Positions 9,286 through 53,108 of a DNA stretch of 53,108 nucleotides are shown here, in pieces. The DNA comes from a virus, in the IMG/VR virus record IMGVR_UViG_3300008267_006330, positions 1 to 53,108 of that record; one strand, written 5' to 3'. Below the pieces are notes generated by a model that was not told the DNA's origin, did no database searches, and saw only the letters and a program-made list of their open reading frames with translations. Each line of letters starts with the position of its first letter. Positions within the stretch are counted from its first letter, which is position 1. Made by a program: the position numbers and the translations under genes.

Positions 9286-9690
9286 CTATTTGGGTTGTTG
9301 ATAAGTTTCAGTTTTGTAATTGGCCTGGCCGGCAATTACCCCTCTTACTCCACCAACAGGATCCAAGCAATCACCTTGCTTGCGTGGAATCAAATGTACA
9401 TGTGGATACATCACTGTCTGACCAGCAGCAGGACCCATGTTTAGCCCAATGTTAAATGCATCGCACTCACCACGAGCAACCATTTGTTGACCGGTAATCA
9501 GTGCTGTGCCTAGGCAAACAACAATGCCTTCGTCTGTGTTGTTGCGTGGAACAAACAACAAATGACCTTTGGTTACTGGAAAACGATCTTGGAACACCGT
9601 CACATGTTGAGTACTGAGTGCAGGAACTTCTAGATCCCAGGGTGCCACCTTGCCTTCTTGTGCGGCCTGTAGAGTTGCGTATTTGATCAT
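9286..9690 (-). CDS. HIT-family hydrolase-like protein
   Basis: The 134-aa protein carries YPHVHLIPR near residue 95, a histidine-triad motif of the H-x-H-x-x-x type. Its N-terminal strands (VTVFQDRFPVTKGHLLFVPRN) are typical of HIT proteins. The third His of a full HxHxH triad is replaced (HVHLIPR), which is common in divergent phage and GalT-like members. HIT enzymes hydrolyse or transfer nucleotidyl groups. Its start overlaps the DegT-FolE gene by four bases. Confidence 0.75.
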   Translation of the reverse strand: MIKYATLQAAQEGKVAPWDLEVPALSTQHVTVFQDRFPVTKGHLLFVPRNNTDEGIVVCLGTALITGQQMVARGECDAFNIGLNMGPAAGQTVMYPHVHLIPRKQGDCLDPVGGVRGVIAGQANYKTETYQQPK

Positions 9691-10946
9691 CTTGGTGCAA
9701 AGTCCTGTTGTAGTTTGATGTTGTCGAAGAATTCTTTCTTCACGCTTTGGTCTGTTTTAAAAGCCCCGCGTAATACCGTTGTCTGGGTAAGACTACTATG
9801 AGCCATAATACCCCGATTCTCACAACATCCATGGGTAGCCTGTATATAAACTGCGACATCCTTGGTCCCGGTTGCCAGTTCAATTTCCCTAGCAATATCC
9901 ATACATAGTTCTTCTTGGAGAGTCCCACGTCGGGCACACCACTGGGCAATGCGAGTGTATTTGGATAGACCAATGAGTTTGGGGCCAGCAATGATTCCAA
10001 TATAAGCCACACCCGCAACAGGTTGGTGATGGTGGCTACACATGCTCTTAAGCTCTGAACGCACCACAAGCATACCGTCGTATGCTCCGTCCGTATCGTT
10101 CGGGAAAGCCGTAGCATTAGGGCTCGTCTCATAACGGCCAGACATGATTTCGTTGAAGTACATTTTAGCAAGACGCCTTGCTGTGCCTTTGGAGTTTGGA
10201 TCATTTTCTCTGTCAATCAATAATGCATCTAGTACACCTTCAAACGCTGTAGTGGCTTCGTCGATCAGTTGCTCTTTCATTGCGTCGTCAATATACTCGC
10301 TAACATTATCGCCAGCCCAGAATCTTTTTCCGTCACGTTTGAATTTAAAGCGAAGGTGATCGCAAACTTTGCCTAGTCCGTAACCGCCATCGCCGGCCAT
10401 TGCGTCTAGTGCTGTTTCTTTGTTATCTGTCATTTGAACTGCTTCTTCTGGAGTGGGCTTGTAGTGATAGCCAACTCTGAATTCTCGTTGTCCTACCCAG
10501 GGTTTGATATTTAGATCACGACCGTCATACCGCATACAAATAATTGCATCATATGCCGCTCGGTCATCTAGTATTATAGCACCACCACGGCCTATATGTA
10601 AAGGCTTGTCATGCCCAAAACTCAAACATTGCATGGTTCCGGGACGATACATATTGGGCTGAAGTTTACGAGCACTATCCCAAATACGAGTGCCTTCGAA
10701 CTTGTATTCACCGATCCATTGTTGTCTGTGTGGCAAAGAGTCAGGAAAGTAATCATACTTGATTCCTAATTTGTGCATGGTCATTGGAATGCTCAAATAA
10801 GTGTATGGGGTAAAACTACACTCCTTGATCCTATCATACCGTAAACACAGCTCGATAGCATGTGTGCAACAATCGGTCATGACAGCATACGGGGCTCCAG
10901 TAAACTTTGCTAGAGCGTCTTCAAACTGTTTGATTTTTTCGAACAT
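9687..10946 (-). CDS. folE: Fusion of a DegT-like aminotransferase fragment and FolE (GTP cyclohydrolase I)
   Basis: Residues 1-171 resemble the short DegT/DnrJ/EryC1 aminotransferase-like proteins of phages (YAVMTDCCTHAIEL, RIWDSARKLQ, HIGRGGAIIL). From Met172 (10433) the protein is GTP cyclohydrolase I: CSHHHQPVAG carries zinc Cys and catalytic His residues, followed by KLIGLSKYTRIAQWCARR and a distal THGCCENRG zinc Cys region. FolE turns GTP into dihydroneopterin triphosphate, the first step to 7-deazaguanines and folate. The DegT part lacks its usual end and runs in frame into the FolE Met, so either a fusion is made or FolE starts internally at 10433. Confidence 0.82.
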   Translation of the reverse strand: MFEKIKQFEDALAKFTGAPYAVMTDCCTHAIELCLRYDRIKECSFTPYTYLSIPMTMHKLGIKYDYFPDSLPHRQQWIGEYKFEGTRIWDSARKLQPNMYRPGTMQCLSFGHDKPLHIGRGGAIILDDRAAYDAIICMRYDGRDLNIKPWVGQREFRVGYHYKPTPEEAVQMTDNKETALDAMAGDGGYGLGKVCDHLRFKFKRDGKRFWAGDNVSEYIDDAMKEQLIDEATTAFEGVLDALLIDRENDPNSKGTARRLAKMYFNEIMSGRYETSPNATAFPNDTDGAYDGMLVVRSELKSMCSHHHQPVAGVAYIGIIAGPKLIGLSKYTRIAQWCARRGTLQEELCMDIAREIELATGTKDVAVYIQATHGCCENRGIMAHSSLTQTTVLRGAFKTDQSVKKEFFDNIKLQQDFAPR

Positions 10947-42472: not shown

Positions 42473-43123
42473 TTATTTAGCACGAGCTATAATGGGCAGG
42501 GTCTTTCTGACTACACCGGGCACAGCCATGCTGATCAAGAAATCGGCATTGGGTTCGTTGTGGTCCACAAAATAGTTGCTCATCAACCACATTCTACTGC
42601 CTTTTACTAATTTGGCAAAACCCGGGCCTTGTCTAAACATATCAGGCCTGGCGGCAAAATAGCGCCGTAGGGTCGACATGTCGTCGTTTGAAAGCCAGCG
42701 TTCCTTAAAGTATGTTCTAAATGCATGCCGTGGATTTTTCAATGTTACAGCGTCTGGATTCATGTTTACCAGGGCTTGATTTACGTACATAATCTCGCCT
42801 GTAGGTATGGTGTTTATGTCTTGAAAATCTTCAGGACTGTTGGTGTACAGCCATATGCCGTTGCCACACACTACTTTCTTGTAAGGATGTGCTCGGGCCA
42901 ACAAATAATCGCAGGCATGATGCAATGTTTTTTCAACTTCGGGGGTGATGTGTCTTGCACCACCACGGCGAGCAATCCATTCGTTTCTGTAGCGAATACC
43001 TTGATTGATACGCTCATGTTTGAGCTCGCGCAGGAAACTAGCCTCAGGCAGAAGAAACAAGATCACATACTGCCACTTGTGAAAGTACAAAGTACTACGT
43101 GGCACTAAAACAGATTTATACAT
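42473..43123 (-). CDS. Conserved phage-type hypothetical protein, 216 aa
   Basis: I chose MYKSVLVPRSTLYFHKWQ (43123). The protein has a helical N-terminal half (ASFLRELKHERINQGIRYRNEWIARRGG), a central ACDYLLARAHPYKKVVCGNG and a C-terminal DFLISMAVPGVVRKTLP. It resembles uncharacterised proteins of T4-like marine phages. It overlaps the ClpA-like gene end by eight bases. Function unknown. Confidence 0.62.
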   Translation of the reverse strand: MYKSVLVPRSTLYFHKWQYVILFLLPEASFLRELKHERINQGIRYRNEWIARRGGARHITPEVEKTLHHACDYLLARAHPYKKVVCGNGIWLYTNSPEDFQDINTIPTGEIMYVNQALVNMNPDAVTLKNPRHAFRTYFKERWLSNDDMSTLRRYFAARPDMFRQGPGFAKLVKGSRMWLMSNYFVDHNEPNADFLISMAVPGVVRKTLPIIARAK

Positions 43124-44399
43124 CTGGGAATCTGATAATGCCATCATCTGCTACTACAGGTACCACTCGTTTTACAACATCAAACACAACTTTATCGTCT
43201 GCCAAGTCTGCTGTGATGTCACATTCGGCCAGTCGATCAAACAAGATCTTCTTACTCAGTGGTACACGAATCAGTTCATCAATCTTACGTGCAAGTGGCC
43301 GCGCACCCATCTTGCTATCATAGCCCCGGTCAGCCAGCATGTCAACAACCGATTCGGATAAATTGAGGTGTATACCTTTGGTTAGTAGACTTGTCTTGAG
43401 TTCATCAACAAACTTAACAACGACTTTCTTGATCGCCAAAGTATCCAACTTGGTGAATTTAACAATTTGATCGATACGGTTGCGTAGTTCGGGCTTGAAA
43501 AATTCCTTGACAGCTTTGTCGTCCTCACCAGTCTTTTCAAAGTTGCCAAAGCCAATGTTATTTGCTTCACTGTCACGTGCTCCTAGGTTGGATGTCATGA
43601 TGATGATACAGTTTTTGCAGTTGGCTTTTTTACCATTGCTACTGGTAATGACACCTTCGTCCAGCATTTGAAGCAGGATGTTGGTGACGTCGGGGTGAGC
43701 CTTCTCTATCTCATCAAACAAGATCACACTGAACGGATTCTTGCTGAGATCGGAGATTAGTTTGCCACCGCCCACGTTGCCATCTTCAAAGCCCACATAG
43801 CCCGGGGGAGCGCCAATCAAACTGCTGACACTGTGACGCTCTTGATATTCACTCATGTCATACTTGAGCAGTTTCATATCCAAGTTGTCACTCAGCAGTC
43901 TAGCCAGTTCTGTTTTACCTGTGCCAGTGGGCCCCAGGAACAAGAAGCTGGCCATGGGACGTTTGTCATTGGCAATGCCGGCAAAGTTGATGTACACACG
44001 TTCCAATACTGAGTCCACTGCTGAATCTTGGCCATACAACTTCTGCTTGATGTTGCCTTCCAGTTCCACAATCTTTGTGCTACGCTCGTTTTGCAGTTTG
44101 TCTGCAGGTACACCTGTTACTCGTGCCAGTTGTTCTTCGATCATGGCCTTGGTAATGGTCACGTTACCTAGATCCTTCACACGCTCTCTAGCACAGGCCG
44201 CATCAATCAAGTCAATGCTCTTGTCGGGATTCTTGCGATCGTGTATGTAACGATTGGCCAGTTCCACTGCGGCAGTCATGGCTTCAGTATCAATCATCAC
44301 ATTGTGAAACTGTTCCAGGCGTGGTGAGAGTCCGATTAGAATCTGTTCAGTGGTGTTCGCATCCGGTTCGTCTATCGACAACCTGTAGAAGCGGCGCAT
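43116..44399 (-). CDS. ClpA-like ATPase, C-terminal part (frame-broken)
   Basis: This frame holds the end of the first AAA+ module (RRFYRLSIDEP, SIDLIDAACAR) and a complete second module: GPTGTGKTELA (Walker A, near residue 155), VILFDEIEKAHPD (Walker B), a TSNLGA sensor and GYDSKMGARPLAR. It is the second half of a ClpA/ClpB-type unfoldase. The reading frame is open upstream to PWEEYYESFEKDRALMRRF, which normally follows directly on the N-terminal half. The first ATG (44399) is inside that conserved stretch, so it need not be a true start. Confidence 0.8.
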   Translation of the reverse strand: MRRFYRLSIDEPDANTTEQILIGLSPRLEQFHNVMIDTEAMTAAVELANRYIHDRKNPDKSIDLIDAACARERVKDLGNVTITKAMIEEQLARVTGVPADKLQNERSTKIVELEGNIKQKLYGQDSAVDSVLERVYINFAGIANDKRPMASFLFLGPTGTGKTELARLLSDNLDMKLLKYDMSEYQERHSVSSLIGAPPGYVGFEDGNVGGGKLISDLSKNPFSVILFDEIEKAHPDVTNILLQMLDEGVITSSNGKKANCKNCIIIMTSNLGARDSEANNIGFGNFEKTGEDDKAVKEFFKPELRNRIDQIVKFTKLDTLAIKKVVVKFVDELKTSLLTKGIHLNLSESVVDMLADRGYDSKMGARPLARKIDELIRVPLSKKILFDRLAECDITADLADDKVVFDVVKRVVPVVADDGIIRFPDV

Positions 44400-45351
44400 T
44401 AACGCACGATCCTTTTCGAAACTCTCGTAATATTCTTCCCATGGTAATAGCGGGTTTCAGCATGTTAGCAAAGTCCAAACTGCTTTGCGAACCTGCGCCA
44501 GCACCCTTCATGGTGTGTGCTTCGTCCACAAACAAGATACAGTTCTTCTTGGCTTCCAGGGCTGCAATCACTGCCTTGAACTTTTCTTCAAACTCGCCAC
44601 GGTACTTGCTTCCTGCCAGCAAGTCGCCCACTTCTAGACTCCATACTTCTGAGCCCTTGATAAATTCGGGCACACGGCCTGCATGAATCTCTTGTGCTAA
44701 GCCTTCAATGATGGCAGTTTTGCCCACACCAGGGTCGCCCACCATGAGCACGTTGGCTTTGAAACGGCGTGCCAACACAGTGATCATTTCATGCAGTTCT
44801 TCTGAACGACCAATTAGTGGCTCAAGGCGATTGTTTTGAGCCATCAGCGTGAGATTGGTACAGTACTCTGTAAGGATCTCATTGGCTTGATCTTGACTCA
44901 TTGAGCTTTCACTTGCTGACGCTGACTTGTAGTGCTTTTGCCAGTGTTCCACAAACTCTTGTTTTTTTACACCGTACTTGAGCAAGAAGTAGTGTGCATG
45001 ACTGTTGCCTTCGCTCATGATACTCAAGTAGATATCAATGGTGCTCATGGCACGACGTCCCGTGAACATGACTTGTACGTTGGCACGATTGAACAAGCGT
45101 TCCAGTGCTGTGGTTTTACGAGGTGGTGTGTCTGGAATTTTACCAACCAGTCCAGTTTGACTCACTAGATAGTGTTCTACTTCTTGTTCCATCTTGTCAA
45201 CATCTGCCCCAAAACTTGTGAGAGTTTTTCTAAATGGGGGGTGTCGTACCATGGCCAACAACAAGTGTTCTGTGACCACGTACTCGTGCGTGAGATTGGA
45301 GGCAATCTTAACTGCTTGCTCCACAATGCCGGCGATTTCAGGATTGTTCAT
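44347..45351 (-). CDS. ClpA-like ATPase, N-terminal part (frame-broken)
   Basis: Residues 1-140 form a Clp N-domain (HEYVVTEHLLLAMVRHPPF). Walker A GDPGVGKT is at 205-212, LLAGSKYRGEFEEKF follows, and Walker B CILFVDEAHT is at 271-280. It is coherent up to LDFANMLKPAIT; the next residues are out of frame with the C-terminal part. About ten residues expected between them (normally the G-D-L-K-V/I-x-A-S/T-T region) are missing. A clear promoter precedes the ATG. Unfoldases could recycle stalled phage proteins or remodel host factors. Confidence 0.82.
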   Translation of the reverse strand: MNNPEIAGIVEQAVKIASNLTHEYVVTEHLLLAMVRHPPFRKTLTSFGADVDKMEQEVEHYLVSQTGLVGKIPDTPPRKTTALERLFNRANVQVMFTGRRAMSTIDIYLSIMSEGNSHAHYFLLKYGVKKQEFVEHWQKHYKSASASESSMSQDQANEILTEYCTNLTLMAQNNRLEPLIGRSEELHEMITVLARRFKANVLMVGDPGVGKTAIIEGLAQEIHAGRVPEFIKGSEVWSLEVGDLLAGSKYRGEFEEKFKAVIAALEAKKNCILFVDEAHTMKGAGAGSQSSLDFANMLKPAITMGRILREFRKGSCVNAPLLQVVDRRTGCEHH

Positions 45352-45421: not shown

Positions 45422-46201
45422 TTATGAATGAGTTTGGATGGCTGTGATGATTTCGGGTGCAATTGTCTTGGGAATTTCAGTTTGTATCTGCACCATAAGA
45501 TCGCCCTTTTGCCCCGACTGATCTCCCAGGCCTTGTGATCTCAGTCGCAATGTGGTTCCAGGTTGAGTATGTGGTGCAACCTTTACTACCAAGCGATTGC
45601 CCTCTACAGTTTGCACTTCAGTCTCACCGCCTAGGATCAAAGTCCATATAGATACTTTGTGTGTGGTTGCAAGATTGAGTCCTTGTCGTTGAAAGTTAGC
45701 ATGTGGTTGTATTCTGAATTGGATCACCAGATCCTGACCTCCGGGTGCAATGCCAGGATACTGCACATTATCACCATCATTGATGCCCTGAGGTATTTCA
45801 ATTTCAACTGTGCTGGTTCCGGCCTGTGTGCCCAGGGCTACAGGACGTCGGCCACCACGAGCCACATCCAACAGTGTGATCCAAAGACTCATGCGCACAT
45901 GATTACGGCGCGGCTGTTGGCCAAATGGCGATTGCCCGCCAAACATCTGACTAAAGATGTCGTGCATGTTGCCAAACTGTGCTCCGGGACCAAATCCTTG
46001 GAACTGCGGAGCAGGATTGTCGTAGGCCTGACGTTTGGCTTCGTCACCTAGTGTGTCATAAGCAGCTTGTATCTCTTGAAATTTCTTTGTATCCCCACCT
46101 TTGTCAGGATGATGCTGGCTGGCCAGCCGGCGGAAAGCACGTTTGATTTCATCCTGTGTAGCTGTTTTTGCAACACCCAAGGTTGCATAGTGATCGGTCA
46201 T
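45422..46201 (-). CDS. DnaJ/CbpA-type J-domain chaperone
   Basis: The 259-aa protein has a J-domain at residues 3-65 (YATLGVAKTATQDEIKRAFRRLA, then HHPDKGGD with the HPD motif). A Gly/Phe/Gln-rich linker (FGNMHDIFSQMFGGQ) and a C-terminal substrate-binding region with no zinc-finger CxxCxGxG motifs follow, so it is CbpA-like (type II). It probably recruits host DnaK to phage proteins. Its promoter overlaps the terminator of the upstream gene. Confidence 0.88.
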   Translation of the reverse strand: MTDHYATLGVAKTATQDEIKRAFRRLASQHHPDKGGDTKKFQEIQAAYDTLGDEAKRQAYDNPAPQFQGFGPGAQFGNMHDIFSQMFGGQSPFGQQPRRNHVRMSLWITLLDVARGGRRPVALGTQAGTSTVEIEIPQGINDGDNVQYPGIAPGGQDLVIQFRIQPHANFQRQGLNLATTHKVSIWTLILGGETEVQTVEGNRLVVKVAPHTQPGTTLRLRSQGLGDQSGQKGDLMVQIQTEIPKTIAPEIITAIQTHS

Positions 46202-46237
46202 AAAAAAGGCCCTGTATGTTTAATTATACAAGGCCTT
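46202..46237 (-). terminator. Rho-independent terminator before dnaJ
   Basis: On the minus strand AAGGCCTTGTAT and ATACAGGGCCTT (46226-46237 and 46206-46217) form a 12-bp stem with one G-U pair and an 8-base loop, followed by six T immediately before the dnaJ ATG. It lies just after the small secreted protein gene and should stop transcripts from the holin side. Confidence 0.8.
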
Positions 46238-46251
46238 TGTGGTTGTGTCAA
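46223..46251 (-). promoter_or_regulatory. Consensus sigma-70 promoter for dnaJ, inside the terminator
   Basis: TTGACA (46246-46251) and TATAAT (46223-46228) are perfect consensus with a 17-base spacer. The -10 box overlaps the hairpin of the terminator, so the same bases end one transcript and start another. The start point should lie about 15 bases before the dnaJ ATG. Confidence 0.82.
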
Positions 46252-46254
46252 AAC

Positions 46255-46479
46255 TTATTTCTTTTTGGGCTCAGGAACTTTTTCAGCTCCTTCCAGTTTC
46301 TTGTGTTGCTTGACTTCTTTACAGTTCTGTTTGACTTTTTTAGTTTTGGGATCAATTACGCCCTTGCCTTCTTTGTCTTTAACATCGACACAGACTCGTT
46401 TGGTTTCTTTCTTGGGCTCTTCAGCAATGACAAATTGACTACCTAGGGCCAAGGTTAATGCAATTAATAAGTGTTTCAT
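46255..46479 (-). CDS. Small secreted Lys-rich protein, 74 aa
   Basis: A Sec signal peptide (MKHLLIALTLALGSQFVIA) precedes a very charged 55-residue mature part rich in Lys and Glu, with two Cys (RVCVDV and KQNCKEV) that could form a disulfide. It lies four bases after the holin gene and before a strong terminator. It may act in the periplasm during late infection; no known spanin motif or lipobox is visible. Confidence 0.65.
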   Translation of the reverse strand: MKHLLIALTLALGSQFVIAEEPKKETKRVCVDVKDKEGKGVIDPKTKKVKQNCKEVKQHKKLEGAEKVPEPKKK

Positions 46480-46483
46480 GATT

Positions 46484-46981
46484 TTATCTTTCTGGGAATG
46501 GTGGAATCACAGGGGCGGGTTTGCCCCCGAATCCTGTGACAACTTCTGCAGACGCTGGCGCTCCAAATCCTGAACTGCTACCAAAGCTGCTTGGTGCTGT
46601 TGGAGTAGTACCCCAGCTTGGTACTGGCGTAAAACTTGTGCTTGGTGCTGGGGTACCAAATCCTGTTGAGGGTGTGCCTGGTGTTTGTGCTCCGCCATTG
46701 TTTGCTCCATTTAGTTTTTCTTGTGTGCGACCAAATGCCGCAATACCTAAAACTGCACCCATTGCAATGTGGAATAGTCCAGCACCTTGTAAGGTCAGTG
46801 GGTTCCATTGACTTGTAACTTGTCCGTGATTCAACGACTGTAGTAGACTCCATAACACTGGAAATACCACCATGTCCATGGTACATACTAACATATACAT
46901 CCAGCCCATCATTGGACGCCATTTTGAGTTCATCCAGTCTTCTTTTTTCTTTTCTGATTCGCTTTTGACTTCTTCTGCCAT
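46484..46981 (-). CDS. Holin (3TM, gene-transfer-agent-holin-like)
   Basis: The 165-aa protein has a charged N-terminus, then WRPMMGWMYMLVCTMDMVVFPVLW and LQGAGLFHIAMGAVLGIAAFGRTQEK, the pattern of the GTA_holin_3TM family (R-P-x-x-G-W ... R-x-x-E-K). The tail is long and Gly/Pro/Ser/Thr-rich. Holins permeabilise the inner membrane at lysis. A perfect late promoter and an AAGGAG site lie upstream, and it is divergent from the csgF gene. Confidence 0.8.
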   Translation of the reverse strand: MAEEVKSESEKKKEDWMNSKWRPMMGWMYMLVCTMDMVVFPVLWSLLQSLNHGQVTSQWNPLTLQGAGLFHIAMGAVLGIAAFGRTQEKLNGANNGGAQTPGTPSTGFGTPAPSTSFTPVPSWGTTPTAPSSFGSSSGFGAPASAEVVTGFGGKPAPVIPPFPER

Positions 46982-47082: not shown

Positions 47083-47523
47083 ATGAAAACAACAATAACA
47101 ACATTAGCCTTGATGCTGGTTGCAGCTGGAGTTTCTGCCACTGAACTAGTACATCAATTCAATTCGCCAGCTTTTTCAGGAGTCGGTTACAGTAGTCACG
47201 TGCTAACAATCGAGCAACTGGAAGCCACACGCCGGCAAAAACTACGAGAAGAAGAAGCAAGCAGATTAGCCAAAGCTGAGCTTGCAGCCAAACAAACCAA
47301 CATAGCTAAATTCCTAGTCAACGTAGAAAGTCGTATCTATGCTCAGTTGAGCAAACAGTTGGCAGACTCGTTGTTCAGCGGCGGCGGCACCACGGGTAGC
47401 ATGGATTTTCAAGGCACCAACATCAGCTGGGTCAAAACCTCTACTGATGTAACATTGACCATTCTGGAAAGCAATGGCAATCGCACAGAGATCACCGTGC
47501 CACTAGCGAGTTTTGCATTTTGA
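47083..47523 (+). CDS. csgF: CsgF-like curli assembly factor
   Basis: The 146-aa protein (E. coli CsgF has 138) has a signal peptide ending near VSA and the mature N-terminus TELVHQFNSPAFSGVGYSSH, which fits the CsgF F-x-N-P-x-F-G peptide that inserts into the CsgG channel. The C-terminal domain (STDVTLTILESNGNRTEITVPLASF) matches the CsgF beta-sheet. CsgF sits on CsgG at the outer membrane and holds the nucleator. Its stop overlaps the csgG ATG. Confidence 0.8.
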   Translation: MKTTITTLALMLVAAGVSATELVHQFNSPAFSGVGYSSHVLTIEQLEATRRQKLREEEASRLAKAELAAKQTNIAKFLVNVESRIYAQLSKQLADSLFSGGGTTGSMDFQGTNISWVKTSTDVTLTILESNGNRTEITVPLASFAF

Positions 47524-48347
47524 TGAAAGTACTGTTTTTGTCATTGTTGCTGATGATAAGTGGATGTGCCACTTTGGATCAAACACAGTTTGATGTGCAA
47601 CCTCCCAAACTGGTACCACGACAGAACTTGCTGACTACATTACCTGAGTTGGATGGGCCAAGAATACCCATTGCTGTGTACGGATTCACAGACAAAACTG
47701 GTCAGAAAAAAACCAATGACAAACTGGCGCTGTTTAGCACAGCAGTCACACAAGGTGCCGAGGTATTCCTGATCAAGGCCTTGCAGGACACTCCCAACTG
47801 GTTCACTGTGGTTGAACGTGTGGGCTTGGACAATCTTATCAAGGAGCGACAGCTTATACGCAATCAACGTGAAGTTTACGAAGGTAAAGATGCCAAGCCG
47901 CTCAAACCCTTGTTGGTGGCTGGACTCATGATTGAAGGTGGCATCATTGGCTACGACACCAACATAACGTCAGGTGGCACTGGTGCCAGAATACTGGGCA
48001 TTGGTGCCAGTACACAATATCGAGTGGATGAGATTGTTATTTCCATGCGAGTTATTTCAGTCAACACCGGGGAAGTGTTGCTGAATACGGCTGTGAGCAA
48101 AACTGTGTTTAGCACAGCTCACAATCAGGGAGTTCTCAAATTTGTTGATGTTGGCACAACCAGCATTGAACTTGAGAACGGGGCTGCTGTGAATGAGCCC
48201 ACAACATACGCTGTTCGAATAGCCATCGAACAAGCGGTGTACGAAATGATCCAAGAAGGAGTCAAACGCAAACTTTGGTCATACAAAAAGGGTACCAGCC
48301 CAAGGAGTGAGGATGAGGATAGTAACTCGCCCACAAAACAAAAATGA
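47523..48347 (+). CDS. csgG: CsgG-like outer-membrane curli channel
   Basis: The 274-aa lipoprotein (E. coli CsgG has 277) has a lipobox ISGC at about residues 12-15 (MKVLFLSLLLMISGCATL). CsgG features follow: RIPIAVYGFTDKTGQKK, WFTVVERVGLDNLIKERQLIR, LLVAGLMIEGGIIGYDTN, the channel-loop region ARILGIGASTQYRVDEIVISMRVIS, and a VYEMIQEGVKRKLW C-terminal helix. CsgG forms a nine-subunit beta-barrel that exports curlin without ATP. Confidence 0.88.
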   Translation: MKVLFLSLLLMISGCATLDQTQFDVQPPKLVPRQNLLTTLPELDGPRIPIAVYGFTDKTGQKKTNDKLALFSTAVTQGAEVFLIKALQDTPNWFTVVERVGLDNLIKERQLIRNQREVYEGKDAKPLKPLLVAGLMIEGGIIGYDTNITSGGTGARILGIGASTQYRVDEIVISMRVISVNTGEVLLNTAVSKTVFSTAHNQGVLKFVDVGTTSIELENGAAVNEPTTYAVRIAIEQAVYEMIQEGVKRKLWSYKKGTSPRSEDEDSNSPTKQK

Positions 48348-48970
48348 AAATTACAAGATCTCTCAAAGGGACAATATTTGCACTGGGCATGATGGCGTTA
48401 TTCCATGTTCAAGCTTCAAATGAAATTTATATAGAGCAAGTGGGCGATGATGCCACTGTGACTTTAAAACAAGCAGGCAGCAACAACACCATTGGCAGTG
48501 CTCTAGCGCCGGCCTTTATTGGCGGCGGTCAAAATGTTGTATACATTGAACAGTCAGGCAGTAGCAATCAACTGGCCATGTTGGTCAACGGTGCTGGCAC
48601 CACTGTAACGTCTACAATCATTGGTGATAGCAACCAACAGACCATAACTTGCGGAACCAGTGTCAGTGCCAGCTGTAGTGGATCTGCAATCACGCATACC
48701 ATAACAGGGGACAACAACGATGTGCAAAGTATCCTGGGTACCAATGGTGGAGCACACACCAGTAACATCACAGTGTTGGGTGACTACAACCATGTGACGC
48801 ATAGTAGTTCAGGATCTGGAGCCAACTCAGCCACAATCAATGTCACTGGGTCAGGTTCTGGCGCTACTCCAAATGCAATCACTGTGACACAAAGTGGTAT
48901 GAATACTCAAAGTGCAACCGTCAATGCTTCGGGCAATAACATTAATATCAGTATTATTCAGTCTGACTAA
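48344..48970 (+). CDS. Curlin-repeat-like secreted protein
   Basis: After a signal peptide ending HVQA, the 208-aa protein contains repeated strands of the type IYIEQVGDDATVTLKQAG, VVYIEQSGSSNQLAML, TIIGDSNQQTI, TITGDNNDVQSI, ITVLGDYNHVTH and ITVTQSGMNTQSATV. The x-x-Q-x-G-x-x-N spacing is typical of CsgA/CsgB amyloid repeats. It lies directly after csgG (ATGA), so it is the probable export substrate. One protein may serve as both nucleator and fibre. Confidence 0.75.
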   Translation: MKITRSLKGTIFALGMMALFHVQASNEIYIEQVGDDATVTLKQAGSNNTIGSALAPAFIGGGQNVVYIEQSGSSNQLAMLVNGAGTTVTSTIIGDSNQQTITCGTSVSASCSGSAITHTITGDNNDVQSILGTNGGAHTSNITVLGDYNHVTHSSSGSGANSATINVTGSGSGATPNAITVTQSGMNTQSATVNASGNNINISIIQSD

Positions 48971-50000
48971 CGCCTGGGCTGGAGTGGGCAAGGTGACTGA
49001 ACAAACTGGTCCTACTGAAATAGTACGGGCTCGAAAAAGCATATCCAGTGCTGTAAATACCACAGTGGAAATGAACGATACAATTGTCACAGCTCGATCC
49101 CGAGCTGAATTGACTTTTGATGATGCTACCAAAGTCAAAATAACCGAACAGTCAAAGCTGATAATTGATGACTTTGTGTATGATCCCAAACAAGGTACAG
49201 GTAAGTTGACCATGAAAGTGGCCCTGGGCACGGCTAGATATGCTTCGGGACAGATTGCTAAAAATTCACCTCAACAGGTTGCGGTCAGCACACCCACAGC
49301 TTCTATTGCTGTACGTGGCACAGACTTTTCAATGACTGTGGATGAGCTGGGTCGCAGTCTCATAATGCTGTTGCCCAGTTGTGATGACAAGACATGTGTG
49401 ACGGGCGCTATTGAAGTCAGCAATGAAGCTGGCAGTATTCTAATGACACAGGCCTATCAAGCCACACTGGTTTCCACAACTGACACTGCACCCACAAGAC
49501 CAGTTGTGTTAAACATTGATCAGGCCAACATCAACAACATGTTGATTATCAGCCGACCCCGAGAAATTACAGACGAACAAAAAGACTCCCGAAGAGACAC
49601 ACGCACTGCCCTGGACGTTAATTTTTTAGATCGAGACTTTTTGAAGCCAGCGGATCTAGGCAATGAGTTGGACGCATCTAATAGACTGGATCGCAACGCC
49701 CTAGATGATGAGTTGTTGCCCAACGTGCTGGATGCTGTGAATGCGGCCTTGGCAGCCACTCAAGAAGCCATGAGCACCACCCTGAGCATGTTGCCTGGCT
49801 ATGATGCCAGTTCAGGCCTGACGTGGCGAGTAAATGATCAAGAACAACTAATATTGACCAAATACAGTAACCATGTGTTTGAGCTAACTGTGCCCCGTGA
49901 GCAAGGCGCAATATTGGATCTACAACAGGATGGCATTCCTGTGTACCAGAAAATTAACTCAGGTGGCACCACCACAATAACTGTTGTCCAAAGTCAATAA
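48924..50000 (+). CDS. FecR-domain periplasmic protein
   Basis: The ATG at 48924 gives a signal peptide (MLRAITLISVLFSLTNAWA) and a 358-aa protein; a GTG at 48912 is another possible start. Residues 20-130 match a FecR domain: NDTIVTARSRAELTFDDATKVKI, IDDFVYDPKQGTGKLTM and VSTPTASIAVRGTDFSM. The remainder is a helical Asp-rich region. FecR domains often pair with CHASE2 cyclases; here one lies at the convergent end. The start lies inside the curlin-like gene, as in an operon. Confidence 0.8.
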   Translation: MLRAITLISVLFSLTNAWAGVGKVTEQTGPTEIVRARKSISSAVNTTVEMNDTIVTARSRAELTFDDATKVKITEQSKLIIDDFVYDPKQGTGKLTMKVALGTARYASGQIAKNSPQQVAVSTPTASIAVRGTDFSMTVDELGRSLIMLLPSCDDKTCVTGAIEVSNEAGSILMTQAYQATLVSTTDTAPTRPVVLNIDQANINNMLIISRPREITDEQKDSRRDTRTALDVNFLDRDFLKPADLGNELDASNRLDRNALDDELLPNVLDAVNAALAATQEAMSTTLSMLPGYDASSGLTWRVNDQEQLILTKYSNHVFELTVPREQGAILDLQQDGIPVYQKINSGGTTTITVVQSQ

Positions 50001-50003
50001 ATA
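49996..50003 (+). promoter_or_regulatory. Late-promoter-like element before small membrane genes
   Basis: AATAAATA overlaps the FecR stop and lies 24 bases upstream of the next ATG. The leader ACAAGGAGCCAACATGG is the same as that of the holin gene. Confidence 0.45.
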
Positions 50004-50027
50004 CTACTATAAAAACAAGGAGCCAAC

Positions 50028-50309
50028 ATGGGAGATATTTTCAAACTGATTGGTGATCTAGGGTTTCCGATAGCAGTTGCGCTTGCTGGCGGCTACTTTG
50101 TGTATCTCACAATCAAGTTGTTACTGGCAGGTGTGCTAAGTGCAATCAAAGGCATGGCTGGCATTATTACTGCACTAGACAATCGAGTCAGAACCATGAA
50201 TCACGACGTCATACGCATTGATACCATTGTGTCAAATGCACTAGGACTCAAGCCCGACACTGATCGTATTGCACGAGCCGACGGCAAGAACGATGCCCGG
50301 AGAGACTGA
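50028..50309 (+). CDS. YvrJ/BhlA-like small membrane protein, 93 aa
   Basis: One N-terminal membrane segment (LGFPIAVALAGGYFVYLTIKLLLAGVL) is followed by an amphipathic helix (IITALDNRVRTMNHDVIRID) and a polar tail. This fits bacteriocin-type holin-like proteins (YvrJ/BhlA/UviB). It resembles the protein at 50692-51060. The late-type leader equals that of the holin. It may oligomerise in the inner membrane; the role is not proven. Confidence 0.6.
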   Translation: MGDIFKLIGDLGFPIAVALAGGYFVYLTIKLLLAGVLSAIKGMAGIITALDNRVRTMNHDVIRIDTIVSNALGLKPDTDRIARADGKNDARRD

Positions 50310-50530
50310 TGCTTTACGAAGTTAATTTTGTATTGAATTTAGATTACCTAGCATATCTTTTGATAGGTCTTGGGCTTGGTTATATCATGATCTTGGGTGT
50401 GACCGGTGATTACCGTGCCACAAAACTTGACAGAATGAAAGATGATCTTGCTGCAAAAAAAGAATGGATCCGCATGGTGTCTGAGGCTAAAAGACAAAAA
50501 GGAAAGTACAATGCTACATCTAGATTATAA
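50309..50530 (+). CDS. Small membrane protein, 73 aa
   Basis: The ATG overlaps the preceding TGA (TGATG). A membrane segment (YLAYLLIGLGLGYIMILGV) is followed by a basic, charged helix (LDRMKDDLAAKKEWIRM). It lies between the two YvrJ-like genes and is probably translated with them. No family is recognised. Confidence 0.6.
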   Translation: MLYEVNFVLNLDYLAYLLIGLGLGYIMILGVTGDYRATKLDRMKDDLAAKKEWIRMVSEAKRQKGKYNATSRL

Positions 50531-50699
50531 TTGGGATCTGGGACCAGGATATATTGTACCAGACGCTGAATTAAACACCGAGAAACTGGGCTGGAAACAT
50601 GGACAGTTCTGGCAGATGATCGAAGTCAATGGAAAGTTAAGATTGCACCAGGTAGATCCTATAGTGCAATTTGTTTTAGAAGGATCTAAAAATGAGTGA
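50511..50699 (+). CDS. Small conserved phage-type protein, 62 aa
   Basis: The start MLHLDYNWDLGPGYIVPD at 50511 is preferred to the longer frame. The sequence (LNTEKLGWKHGQFWQMIEVNGKLRLHQVDPIVQFV) looks like a recurring short protein of T4-like marine phages. It overlaps both neighbours. It has no membrane segment. Confidence 0.62.
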   Translation: MLHLDYNWDLGPGYIVPDAELNTEKLGWKHGQFWQMIEVNGKLRLHQVDPIVQFVLEGSKNE

Positions 50700-51060
50700 A
50701 GTAGTTGATTTAGTAAACAAGTACGGATTTCCTATTGTGATGGCTGTGGGCATGGGCTACATCATCAAGTATGTGTGGGAATGGGCTACTAAAGAAGTCA
50801 AGCCGGTTATCAATGATGCCAACTCTGTGTTGATTGCTCTGATTGATCGCATTAGAATGTTGGACAACGATTTGATTCGGTTGAATCAAAAAGTAAACAC
50901 AGTGTTGCATCTACGTGGTAAAATGATTGAATCAGATCGTGTTATGGAAACACAAAAAGTTGAGGCAGCGGCCAATGCCAAGTTTCACGAAGCCATGGAC
51001 GAAGTAGACAAGACTGCGGTTGACAACAAAAAATCAGCAGGTGCTGGCGGCAGTAATTGA
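50692..51060 (+). CDS. YvrJ/BhlA-like membrane protein paralogue, 122 aa
   Basis: It shares the layout of the gene at 50028: YGFPIVMAVGMGYIIKYVWEWA as a membrane anchor, then an amphipathic helix (VLIALIDRIRMLDNDLIRLNQKVNTVLHL) and an Ala/Glu-rich tail. The L-D-N/R-x-R-x-M/L-D-x-D-x-I-R repeat matches its paralogue. It ends one base before the convergent cyclase gene. It may act as a holin-like or channel-forming protein. Confidence 0.6.
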   Translation: MSEVVDLVNKYGFPIVMAVGMGYIIKYVWEWATKEVKPVINDANSVLIALIDRIRMLDNDLIRLNQKVNTVLHLRGKMIESDRVMETQKVEAAANAKFHEAMDEVDKTAVDNKKSAGAGGSN

Positions 51061-51061
51061 A

Positions 51062-53108
51062 TTACTTTTCGTGGGCAACAAACTCACCGTTCCAGTTACT
51101 GGGTAAGTGTTGTTGCTTCATGAACTCACAGCGTTCAATCCACATTTTGTAATACTTGTCCATTTGCCCGCCAAATTTGCCGTGCAATTCTTCGCACAAG
51201 ATAACAGCCGCGTCAAACTGTTTCTGACGGTATAACTCATGCATCTTGTTGTGTGTAGAAAGTTCTTTGGTATAATCTGCACCCTTGGTACGTAGTACTG
51301 TGTAGATCAAGTCTGCTACTGTCTTACCTTTTGGTTGTAAGTTGTCTAGCAACAAATAGAAGAAATCATCTCGAGTTCTGTTGTATGTTTCAGCACCAAC
51401 AATGGCCAACACACCATAGGCTTTACAACGTGCTTCAAGTCGAGCGGCAGTTGAAACCATATCGCCTAATATGTCATAGCTGTGTCTGTCAGTACTGCCC
51501 ATCTCCCCGATAAAGCCTATGCCTGTGTTACAGCCCCAGCCCATGGCTGCAGGAGGTAGGCCTTGTGCTTCCATTAGTTTAGTGTATTCATCAACAGCAT
51601 CCAACATCTCTAAACCAACACGAACAATAGTTCTAGCATGGTTAGGATCTTCAATTGGAGCGCCATGTATGTGCATAGAGGCATCGCCCACATACTTGAT
51701 AATCATACCTTGGTTATCCAGCATGGGTTGACTAATTGCATCCATATATCCGTTCATGTATCCGTTCATGTACCGGCCAAGTCCAGCAACATCATCACCG
51801 TAGTGTTCGCCAATTGGTGTAAACCCACGCAGGTCACTGAACATGACACTTACATCTTTTCGTACACCACGCTTGATCAAGTCTGGATCTTTTTGCAGTA
51901 GCTCTACAACTTCCTTGGAACAGTAGCCTGCAAATTGTTTTTTGATTGCTTGTTTTTGGAGGAACTCTGAGACGAATTTAACTCCGTAGGCGTGTAGCCC
52001 AACGAGGACAATGCCCGCGACTGGGACGGTAACGTCAAATAACCAAAGGTAATTGACAAAACTAAAGTAACTGCCATACGCAAGTACAGCGCATATTCCA
52101 ACCAACGATGCAAGACCAACATAAACCCACCTTGTAAGAATCAATAATAACACACCTGCTGCCAAGATAACAAGTATTTCGACTCCGTCGGCGTAGTCAG
52201 GACGCACAATATTTGTGCCGCCAGCCACGGTTCCTAGTACACTGGCTTGCAAATAGTGCGGATAGACTTCTCCTCTTGCAGTTGCGACGGGGTTGTTGAG
52301 CCCGCGAGCTGTGAGTCCGACAATGACAATTCCACCTTGGAAGTCCTTTGGCAAATCAGCCAAGGAATGTTCTTGCGGCTGGGATGACCAATCCACCCAT
52401 ATTCTACTGTAACTGTCTGTTGGAATTTTTCCAAACTGTGGAATTCTAACTGCTTCAACACTTCCGTCATTGACTCGGACCTGGAAGCTGGGATCTCCGG
52501 CAAGGACTCTAAGCGTTTCAAGACTGATGGAGGGATAGACTTGTTCTCCAACTGTGATGACTTGGGGGACTCGGCGTACAACGCCGTCGATTTCAGGCAA
52601 AGTGTTAACAATGCCAATGCCGCTTGCTGTTTCATTTAAGGACCTCACGTTGGGTTGAATACTTTGATATGCTATGCCTGGCAGGCCAGTTCCTATTACA
52701 GAAACTCCGGGTCTGTAGGGTGAGTACTTGGACACAGTGTCTTCGTTGGTGGCCATGTGTGGCAACACTACTAAACTTTCTTTGAGTTGCCGAGCCAGGG
52801 CAGAGTCTTGCCCAAAACGATCCACATCAGGCATGAATATGTTAAACACAATCACACCAGCATTACGATCTTCTAACTGACGAATAATGTCAGCATACTG
52901 ATTTCTAGGAAAGGGAAACTGTCCACGCTGAGCAATGGCGCGATCGTCAATGTTGACCACATGAATTTGCTCGCTTACAGTGGTCGCACGATCAGTGATC
53001 AGCGTGTCAAAATAGCGCAGTCTTATACTTTCCACAAACGCAGGATCAGCAATTCTTATACTTACGATAAGTGCCAATGTTAGCAATGCTGTCCATGGAC
53101 TTGTTATG
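51062..53108 (-). CDS. CHASE2-class III adenylate cyclase, 5' end beyond window
   Basis: The visible 681 residues begin in an N-terminal membrane helix. A CHASE2 sensor (about 20-290, counting from a TTG at 53086; IVFNIFMPDVDRFGQD) and three membrane helices (301-370) follow. The class III cyclase domain (410-600) has Asp418 (MFSDLRGF), Lys464 and Asp468 (KYVGDA), Asp538 (YDILGD) and Arg549. The Lys/Asp pair predicts ATP as substrate. The transition-state Asn is Ser545 (VSTAAR for VNxAxR). No stop is seen at the right edge. A second messenger signal from a phage is unusual. Confidence 0.88.
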   Translation of the reverse strand, partial: ITSPWTALLTLALIVSIRIADPAFVESIRLRYFDTLITDRATTVSEQIHVVNIDDRAIAQRGQFPFPRNQYADIIRQLEDRNAGVIVFNIFMPDVDRFGQDSALARQLKESLVVLPHMATNEDTVSKYSPYRPGVSVIGTGLPGIAYQSIQPNVRSLNETASGIGIVNTLPEIDGVVRRVPQVITVGEQVYPSISLETLRVLAGDPSFQVRVNDGSVEAVRIPQFGKIPTDSYSRIWVDWSSQPQEHSLADLPKDFQGGIVIVGLTARGLNNPVATARGEVYPHYLQASVLGTVAGGTNIVRPDYADGVEILVILAAGVLLLILTRWVYVGLASLVGICAVLAYGSYFSFVNYLWLFDVTVPVAGIVLVGLHAYGVKFVSEFLQKQAIKKQFAGYCSKEVVELLQKDPDLIKRGVRKDVSVMFSDLRGFTPIGEHYGDDVAGLGRYMNGYMNGYMDAISQPMLDNQGMIIKYVGDASMHIHGAPIEDPNHARTIVRVGLEMLDAVDEYTKLMEAQGLPPAAMGWGCNTGIGFIGEMGSTDRHSYDILGDMVSTAARLEARCKAYGVLAIVGAETYNRTRDDFFYLLLDNLQPKGKTVADLIYTVLRTKGADYTKELSTHNKMHELYRQKQFDAAVILCEELHGKFGGQMDKYYKMWIERCEFMKQQHLPSNWNGEFVAHEK

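Follow-up and report, generated by a model that had tools for sequence, protein, structure and literature searches.

A conserved curli-type gene module on a phage genome and its probable role in type VIII secretion

The phage DNA analysed here carries genes for CsgF, CsgG, curlin-repeat and FecR-domain proteins that probably constitute a phage-borne type VIII (curli) secretion module placing curlin on the surface of the infected cell. On infection, CsgG would form a pore in the outer membrane in which CsgF docks, and the curlin-repeat protein would be exported and form an amyloid-like fibre on the cell surface. The FecR-domain protein would be periplasmic and would anchor or sense the fibre, and a nucleotide cyclase together with a pair of small membrane proteins (s1 and s4) would control or sense the process. 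The purpose may be to hold sister cells together or to block other phages. Among the three functions offered in the initial annotation, namely an amyloid coat, an outer-membrane pore and a superinfection block, the surface fibre is the best supported.

The window, that is the whole stretch of 53,108 bases, is an IMG/VR virus record (IMGVR_UViG_3300008267_006330) and not a bacterial chromosome. It encodes a T4-type DNA polymerase whose closest database relatives are from jumbo phages, the nearest being Sinorhizobium Phosso, Agrobacterium Atu_ph07, Vibrio 2.275.O and 350-kb Escherichia phages. The closest relatives of the CsgG (93% identical) include contigs of 138-364 kb, and the G+C content of 0.45 is even over module and window. 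We call the phage aquatic because of its relatives. A ClpA/B-like ATPase gene (43116-45351, minus strand) is split by a frameshift near 44347-44399 according to ORF comparison, either a sequencing error or a broken gene; its counterparts in two related loci (L005 and L006) are single ORFs of 755-773 aa. Adjoining it, DnaJ-like and GTA-type 3TM holin-like genes (45422-46981, minus strand) run leftward behind the motif TATAAATA (47012-47005). Further away, a single ORF at 9687-10946 (minus strand) has an aminotransferase-like N-terminus and a GTP cyclohydrolase I C-terminus, perhaps as a fusion.

The genes for CsgF, CsgG, curlin and FecR and four small ORFs form one run on the plus strand (47083-51060), and a CHASE2-cyclase gene is convergent with it. 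Pfam profile search matched the four families beyond chance at the places where they had initially been annotated, namely CsgF with a signal peptide (47083..47523; PF10614, 6.7e-14), CsgG as a lipoprotein outer-membrane pore subunit of 275 aa (47520..48347; PF03783, 2.9e-53), the curlin-repeat protein (48344..48970; PF07012) and the FecR-domain periplasmic protein (48924..50000, with a GTG start at 48912 also possible; PF04773, 2.1e-10). The four small proteins reported behind FecR were also found. These are s1 (50028..50309, 93 aa), s2 (50309..50530), s3 (50511..50699) and s4 (50692..51060, 122 aa). s2 is a 73-aa TM protein with 8 homologues among the fetched loci and is present in few relatives, while s3 is a soluble protein of 62 aa with 79 homologues, whose consensus begins at the Met of 50511, most likely the start of the gene. 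Against three close relatives, dN/dS is 0.02-0.16 for all module genes, and therefore the genes are being kept.

CsgE, CsgC and CsgD did not appear in Pfam and NCBIfam scans of the operon ORFs and their neighbours, and the initial annotation was right both in identifying the genes and in seeing them as a minimal, phage-borne set for curli export. The lack of CsgE, the secretion gate, speaks against export. However, all three proteins are reported to be missing likewise from alphaproteobacterial systems (PMC9599517), and therefore we treat them as non-essential to type VIII membership. The description of the operon as late-type was not supported, as no T4-late promoter was found for csgF and the sole nearby TATAAATA precedes the holin gene, on the minus strand.

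CsgG carries the lipobox ISGC, is 47-48% identical to the proteins of phages Melnitz and HTVC008M, and its profile matches the E. coli CsgG structures over the full length (7.5e-70). The CsgF profile aligns collinearly with the E. coli CsgF structures, beginning at the signal peptide and taking in the pore-docking segment (3.7e-8), and the N-terminal CsgG-binding segment ELVHQFNSPAF is kept. Of the docking residues, Phe26 is present in 28/28 and Phe31 in 27/28 phage rows, while the position of Phe24 is His in most phages. In E. coli, mutating Phe26/Phe31 disrupts the binding of CsgF to CsgG (PMC10133297). Phage CsgF has been described as having diverged in structure and perhaps lost its binding to CsgG (PMC9004378); the collinear profile and the kept Phe26/Phe31 contradict such an uncoupling. 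As far as we can tell, the retention of these CsgG-binding residues in phage CsgF is a new observation. A distinctive constriction of the phage pore was considered and rejected, since E. coli Tyr51/Asn55 are absent from phage CsgG but the bacterial relatives found lack Tyr51 equally and Asn55 mostly. One 1.5-kb wastewater clone labelled 'Salmonella phage' (L255, OR851715.1) also encodes CsgG and is probably contaminating bacterial DNA.

These contacts bear on the proposal made for Melnitz (PMC9004378) that the CsgG pore is a device for lysis timing or depolarisation, similar to a pinholin or secretin, and works without a fibre. A holin-like gene directly upstream of csgF (46484-46981, minus strand; phrog_3427, 3e-8) and a weak match of s4, through its residues 1-23 alone, to the holin family phrog_4898 (4e-5) are in keeping with it. 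However, pinholins act on the inner membrane whereas CsgG is an outer-membrane pore, and the holin gene, which runs in the other direction, is linked in only 1/37 loci. The supposed uncoupling of CsgF runs against the docking residues described above. Curlin genes are present in 37/37 loci with complete flanks and are under purifying selection, and the premise of a Melnitz without curlin fails: csgA and csgB were stated to be absent from it (PMC9004378), whereas its record annotates two curlin-repeat genes. We therefore regard a lysis device as unlikely. A point against the fibre is that Melnitz cultures, despite these two genes, showed no clumping (PMC9004378).

The curlin-repeat protein is the likely exported fibre subunit. 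Its PF07012 score lies exactly at the Pfam curated cut-off (4.1e-4), while 18 of 21 homologues pass at E 0.01, the best with 2e-9. About seven strand-GxxN-strand repeats follow a signal peptide read from the sequence, and Cys103 and Cys111 are invariant in the alignment. The AF2 model is a confident all-beta repeat fold (pLDDT 84); Foldseek gave no confident curli match for it, the best hit being SufB (E 0.014). Against close relatives dN/dS is 0.06-0.11 for curlin and FecR and 0.06-0.07 for curlin alone. Adhesins, too, can have signal peptides and repeats, and curlin and FecR could be parts of the virion or capsid-borne adhesins, with a separate role for CsgG and CsgF. This seems very improbable, because CsgF, CsgG, curlin and FecR all bear signal peptides, which indicates export by the host, and the gene order with csgF/csgG is fixed.

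The FecR-domain protein opens with a signal peptide, and its C-terminal beta domain ends in GGTTTITVVQSQ. No N-terminal anti-sigma domain or TM segment is seen in the sequence or in the AF2 model (pLDDT 81, built with two rows from annotated phage records left out), where the signal-peptide helix is the only helix ahead of the FecR domain. The domain has the fold of FecR-type anti-sigma regulators, from which the protein differs by its signal peptide in the place of the anti-sigma domain and TM segment. Foldseek matched it to the FecR-type domains of anti-sigma proteins (1e-4) and, more weakly, to the cell-surface anchoring domain 5ix9 (E 0.011, TM 0.73 by target, aligned residues not reported), which we take to be that of MpAFP. 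Region 21-90 found nothing among PDB sequences, and a profile search gave chance matches only. A curlin-like terminal strand pattern is present at the C-terminus in 102/127 proteins against 5.5% in shuffles. The possibility of a true curlin repeat there was rejected: the curlin profile is not significant at this position and Pfam curlin misses the FecR members, and therefore the strand stays a resemblance. A Cys pair (153/158) is kept in more than 90% of the rows.

No match to ECF sigma (PF08281) was found in seven phage records, which leaves an argument for iron uptake through FecR without a partner on the phage side. Because of its signal peptide, the missing anti-sigma part, the missing ECF sigma and the likeness to 5ix9, the protein is most likely a periplasmic anchor or sensor for the fibre and not an iron regulator. 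As far as can be told, such a FecR protein, devoid of anti-sigma features and resembling an adhesin-anchoring domain, is new. The same search weighs on the suggestion that the pore takes up nutrients or macromolecules for the infected cell (PMC7029224, PMC9599517). While the lack of an encoded CsgE gate suits import, the ECF match in 0/7 records does not, and import leaves the conserved CsgF, curlin and FecR unexplained; we consider it quite improbable.

Two further components of the module, s1 and s4, are paralogues of 93-122 aa (phrog_18771; 9.7e-30 for s1 and 2.3e-29 for s4). Each has a single membrane segment of GFPI type and a coiled-coil-like tail that is highly conserved. Among 50,697 phage records, homologues were found (E <= 0.01 for s4, E <= 1 for s1) only in the six that carry the curli module, a restriction to curli phages that applies to the collections searched. 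A separate search of IMG/VR found s4 matches in at least 598 viral contigs. Among the best 80 of these, 43 have long flanks, and the cyclase is present in 42/43 and CsgG in 29/43 of the flanks, leaving 14 loci without CsgG within 10 kb. Eighteen s4 records, the 14 included, were searched whole and CsgG was found in 15, the other three being fragments of 36-42 kb. A class of phages having s1/s4 without curli was thus rejected, as the records that lack CsgG are all fragments under 43 kb. In the reverse direction, s4 lies in the flank of 33/37 CsgG loci; of the remaining four, two proved to have s4 once the whole record was searched, and the other two are fragments 25-37 kb long. The pair may lie upstream of csgF; where it lies downstream, both orientations occur. 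Its accompanying the phage curli module has, as far as we can judge, not been observed before. Contigs with s1/s4 also occur in bacterial MAGs assigned to Saprospirales, Sphingobacteriales, Synechococcus and Rhodobacteraceae (L109, L115, L124, L148, L150), and look like mis-binned phage contigs.

The cyclase (51062..53086, minus strand; PF05226 1.6e-36, PF00211 5.6e-13) belongs to the class III nucleotide cyclases and has a CHASE2 domain. Its gene is convergent with s4, and it is a regular partner of the module and not a chance neighbour. Asp418, Asp468, Lys464 and Arg549 are invariant in 106 sequences; we take Asp418/Asp468 to be metal-binding, Lys464 to be the substrate residue and 545 to be the position of the catalytic, transition-state Asn. 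In the window this Asn is replaced by Ser545, as in 64 others. The sequences divide into Asp538/Ser545 (n=65, window included) and Thr-or-Ser538/Asn545 (n=41) with no mixed cases, and two strictly separate active-site types appear, so far as can be told, to be a new observation. The other type can be present in phages whose CsgF and CsgG are 90-93% identical to those of the window (L008, L010), and therefore the cassette has been exchanged. The cassette of s1-s4 and cyclase occurs in both orientations (20 vs 72 loci), s4 and cyclase being convergent in both, and therefore an invertible ON/OFF switch adjoining csgFG was considered. The cassette is not bordered by long, near-perfect inverted repeats in the window or in loci L003, L007 and L010, and a switch is extremely unlikely. 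Cyclase and s1/s4 probably control or sense the export process. A more specific scheme, which we put forward tentatively and as rather doubtful, has FecR as a periplasmic retention plug fastening the fibre, proposed because its C-terminus ends in a curlin-like strand, and s1/s4 as a component of the inner membrane, peculiar to phage curli, that would gate or sense export together with the cyclase in the place of CsgE.

The initial annotation had thought the gene order with a neighbouring cyclase unusual. On the contrary, the module recurs in about 110 viral IMG/VR loci and in isolates, namely Melnitz (four strains) and HTVC008M. Eighty viral loci were collected through CsgG, of which 37 extend for 8 kb or more to both sides; matches to CsgF, curlin, FecR and the cyclase family (the last counted with no length limit on the match) are present in 37/37. 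CsgF/CsgG plus unknowns in phages (PMC7029224) and CsgG/CsgF only in Melnitz (PMC9004378) were reported earlier, and for podo- and myoviruses among the pelagiphages the order CsgF-CsgG-CsgA/B-FecR-(second curlin)-adenylate cyclase has been published (Wittmers et al. 2022, PMC9599517). The window thus adds one more member and is not the first. It shares with the pelagiphage system this order and the missing CsgC, CsgD and CsgE; in contrast, it has no second curlin between FecR and cyclase but s1-s4 instead, its cyclase is on the opposite strand and its polymerase is nearest to jumbo T4-like phages. Melnitz and HTVC008M have homologues of CsgF, CsgG, curlin, FecR, s1, s4 and cyclase in one module, but with s1/s4 upstream of csgF and with FecR and cyclase separated by one more gene, which in Melnitz is annotated as a second curlin. 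One or two 'histidine kinases' have been reported upstream of CsgF in pelagiphages (PMC9599517); in Melnitz and HTVC008M this position is taken by the s1/s4 pair, of about 93-115 aa and too small for a kinase, and we infer that the pair is what was reported. As compared to E. coli csgBAC-csgDEFG, the CsgG pore, the CsgF docking protein and the curlin repeat are shared, whereas the phage module is without CsgE/C/D, its curlin has about seven repeats and a Cys pair, and FecR, cyclase and s1/s4 are added.

The viral sequences group in a single clade of the CsgG tree (100/99). Only one of its members is from a long chromosomal contig, namely Hyphomonas sp. TMED17 (L093 6474-12497, 705-kb contig), which has csgF-csgG-curlin-FecR-cyclase in identical order among bacterial-looking genes; its place in the tree is unsure because of its long branch (1.7). 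No s4 homologue was found in its genome. The TMED17 CsgF scores far below the ordinary CsgF of 20 other Hyphomonadaceae, and among 385 alphaproteobacteria TMED17 alone gave a near-full-length match to the phage-type FecR, its own sequence being in the query. This suggests that the module moved between phage and chromosome, in either direction. FecR and cyclase have been stated not to be in bacterial T8SS operons (PMC9599517), to which TMED17 is a counter-example, though a phage-type one. A phage-type copy on one Hyphomonas chromosome is, as far as can be told, also new. A Pirellulales MAG (L084) likewise falls inside the viral CsgG clade and has s4 matches elsewhere in its genome.

Both the contact of CsgF with CsgG and the presence of curlin genes speak against the view, put forward in print, of a pore only. 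As the module is widespread and intact, the claim is testable, and s1/s4, a specific and hitherto unremarked part of it, is open to knock-out. If the reading is true, phages that have infected cells coat themselves with amyloid would alter both the cohesion of infected populations and their resistance to other phages.
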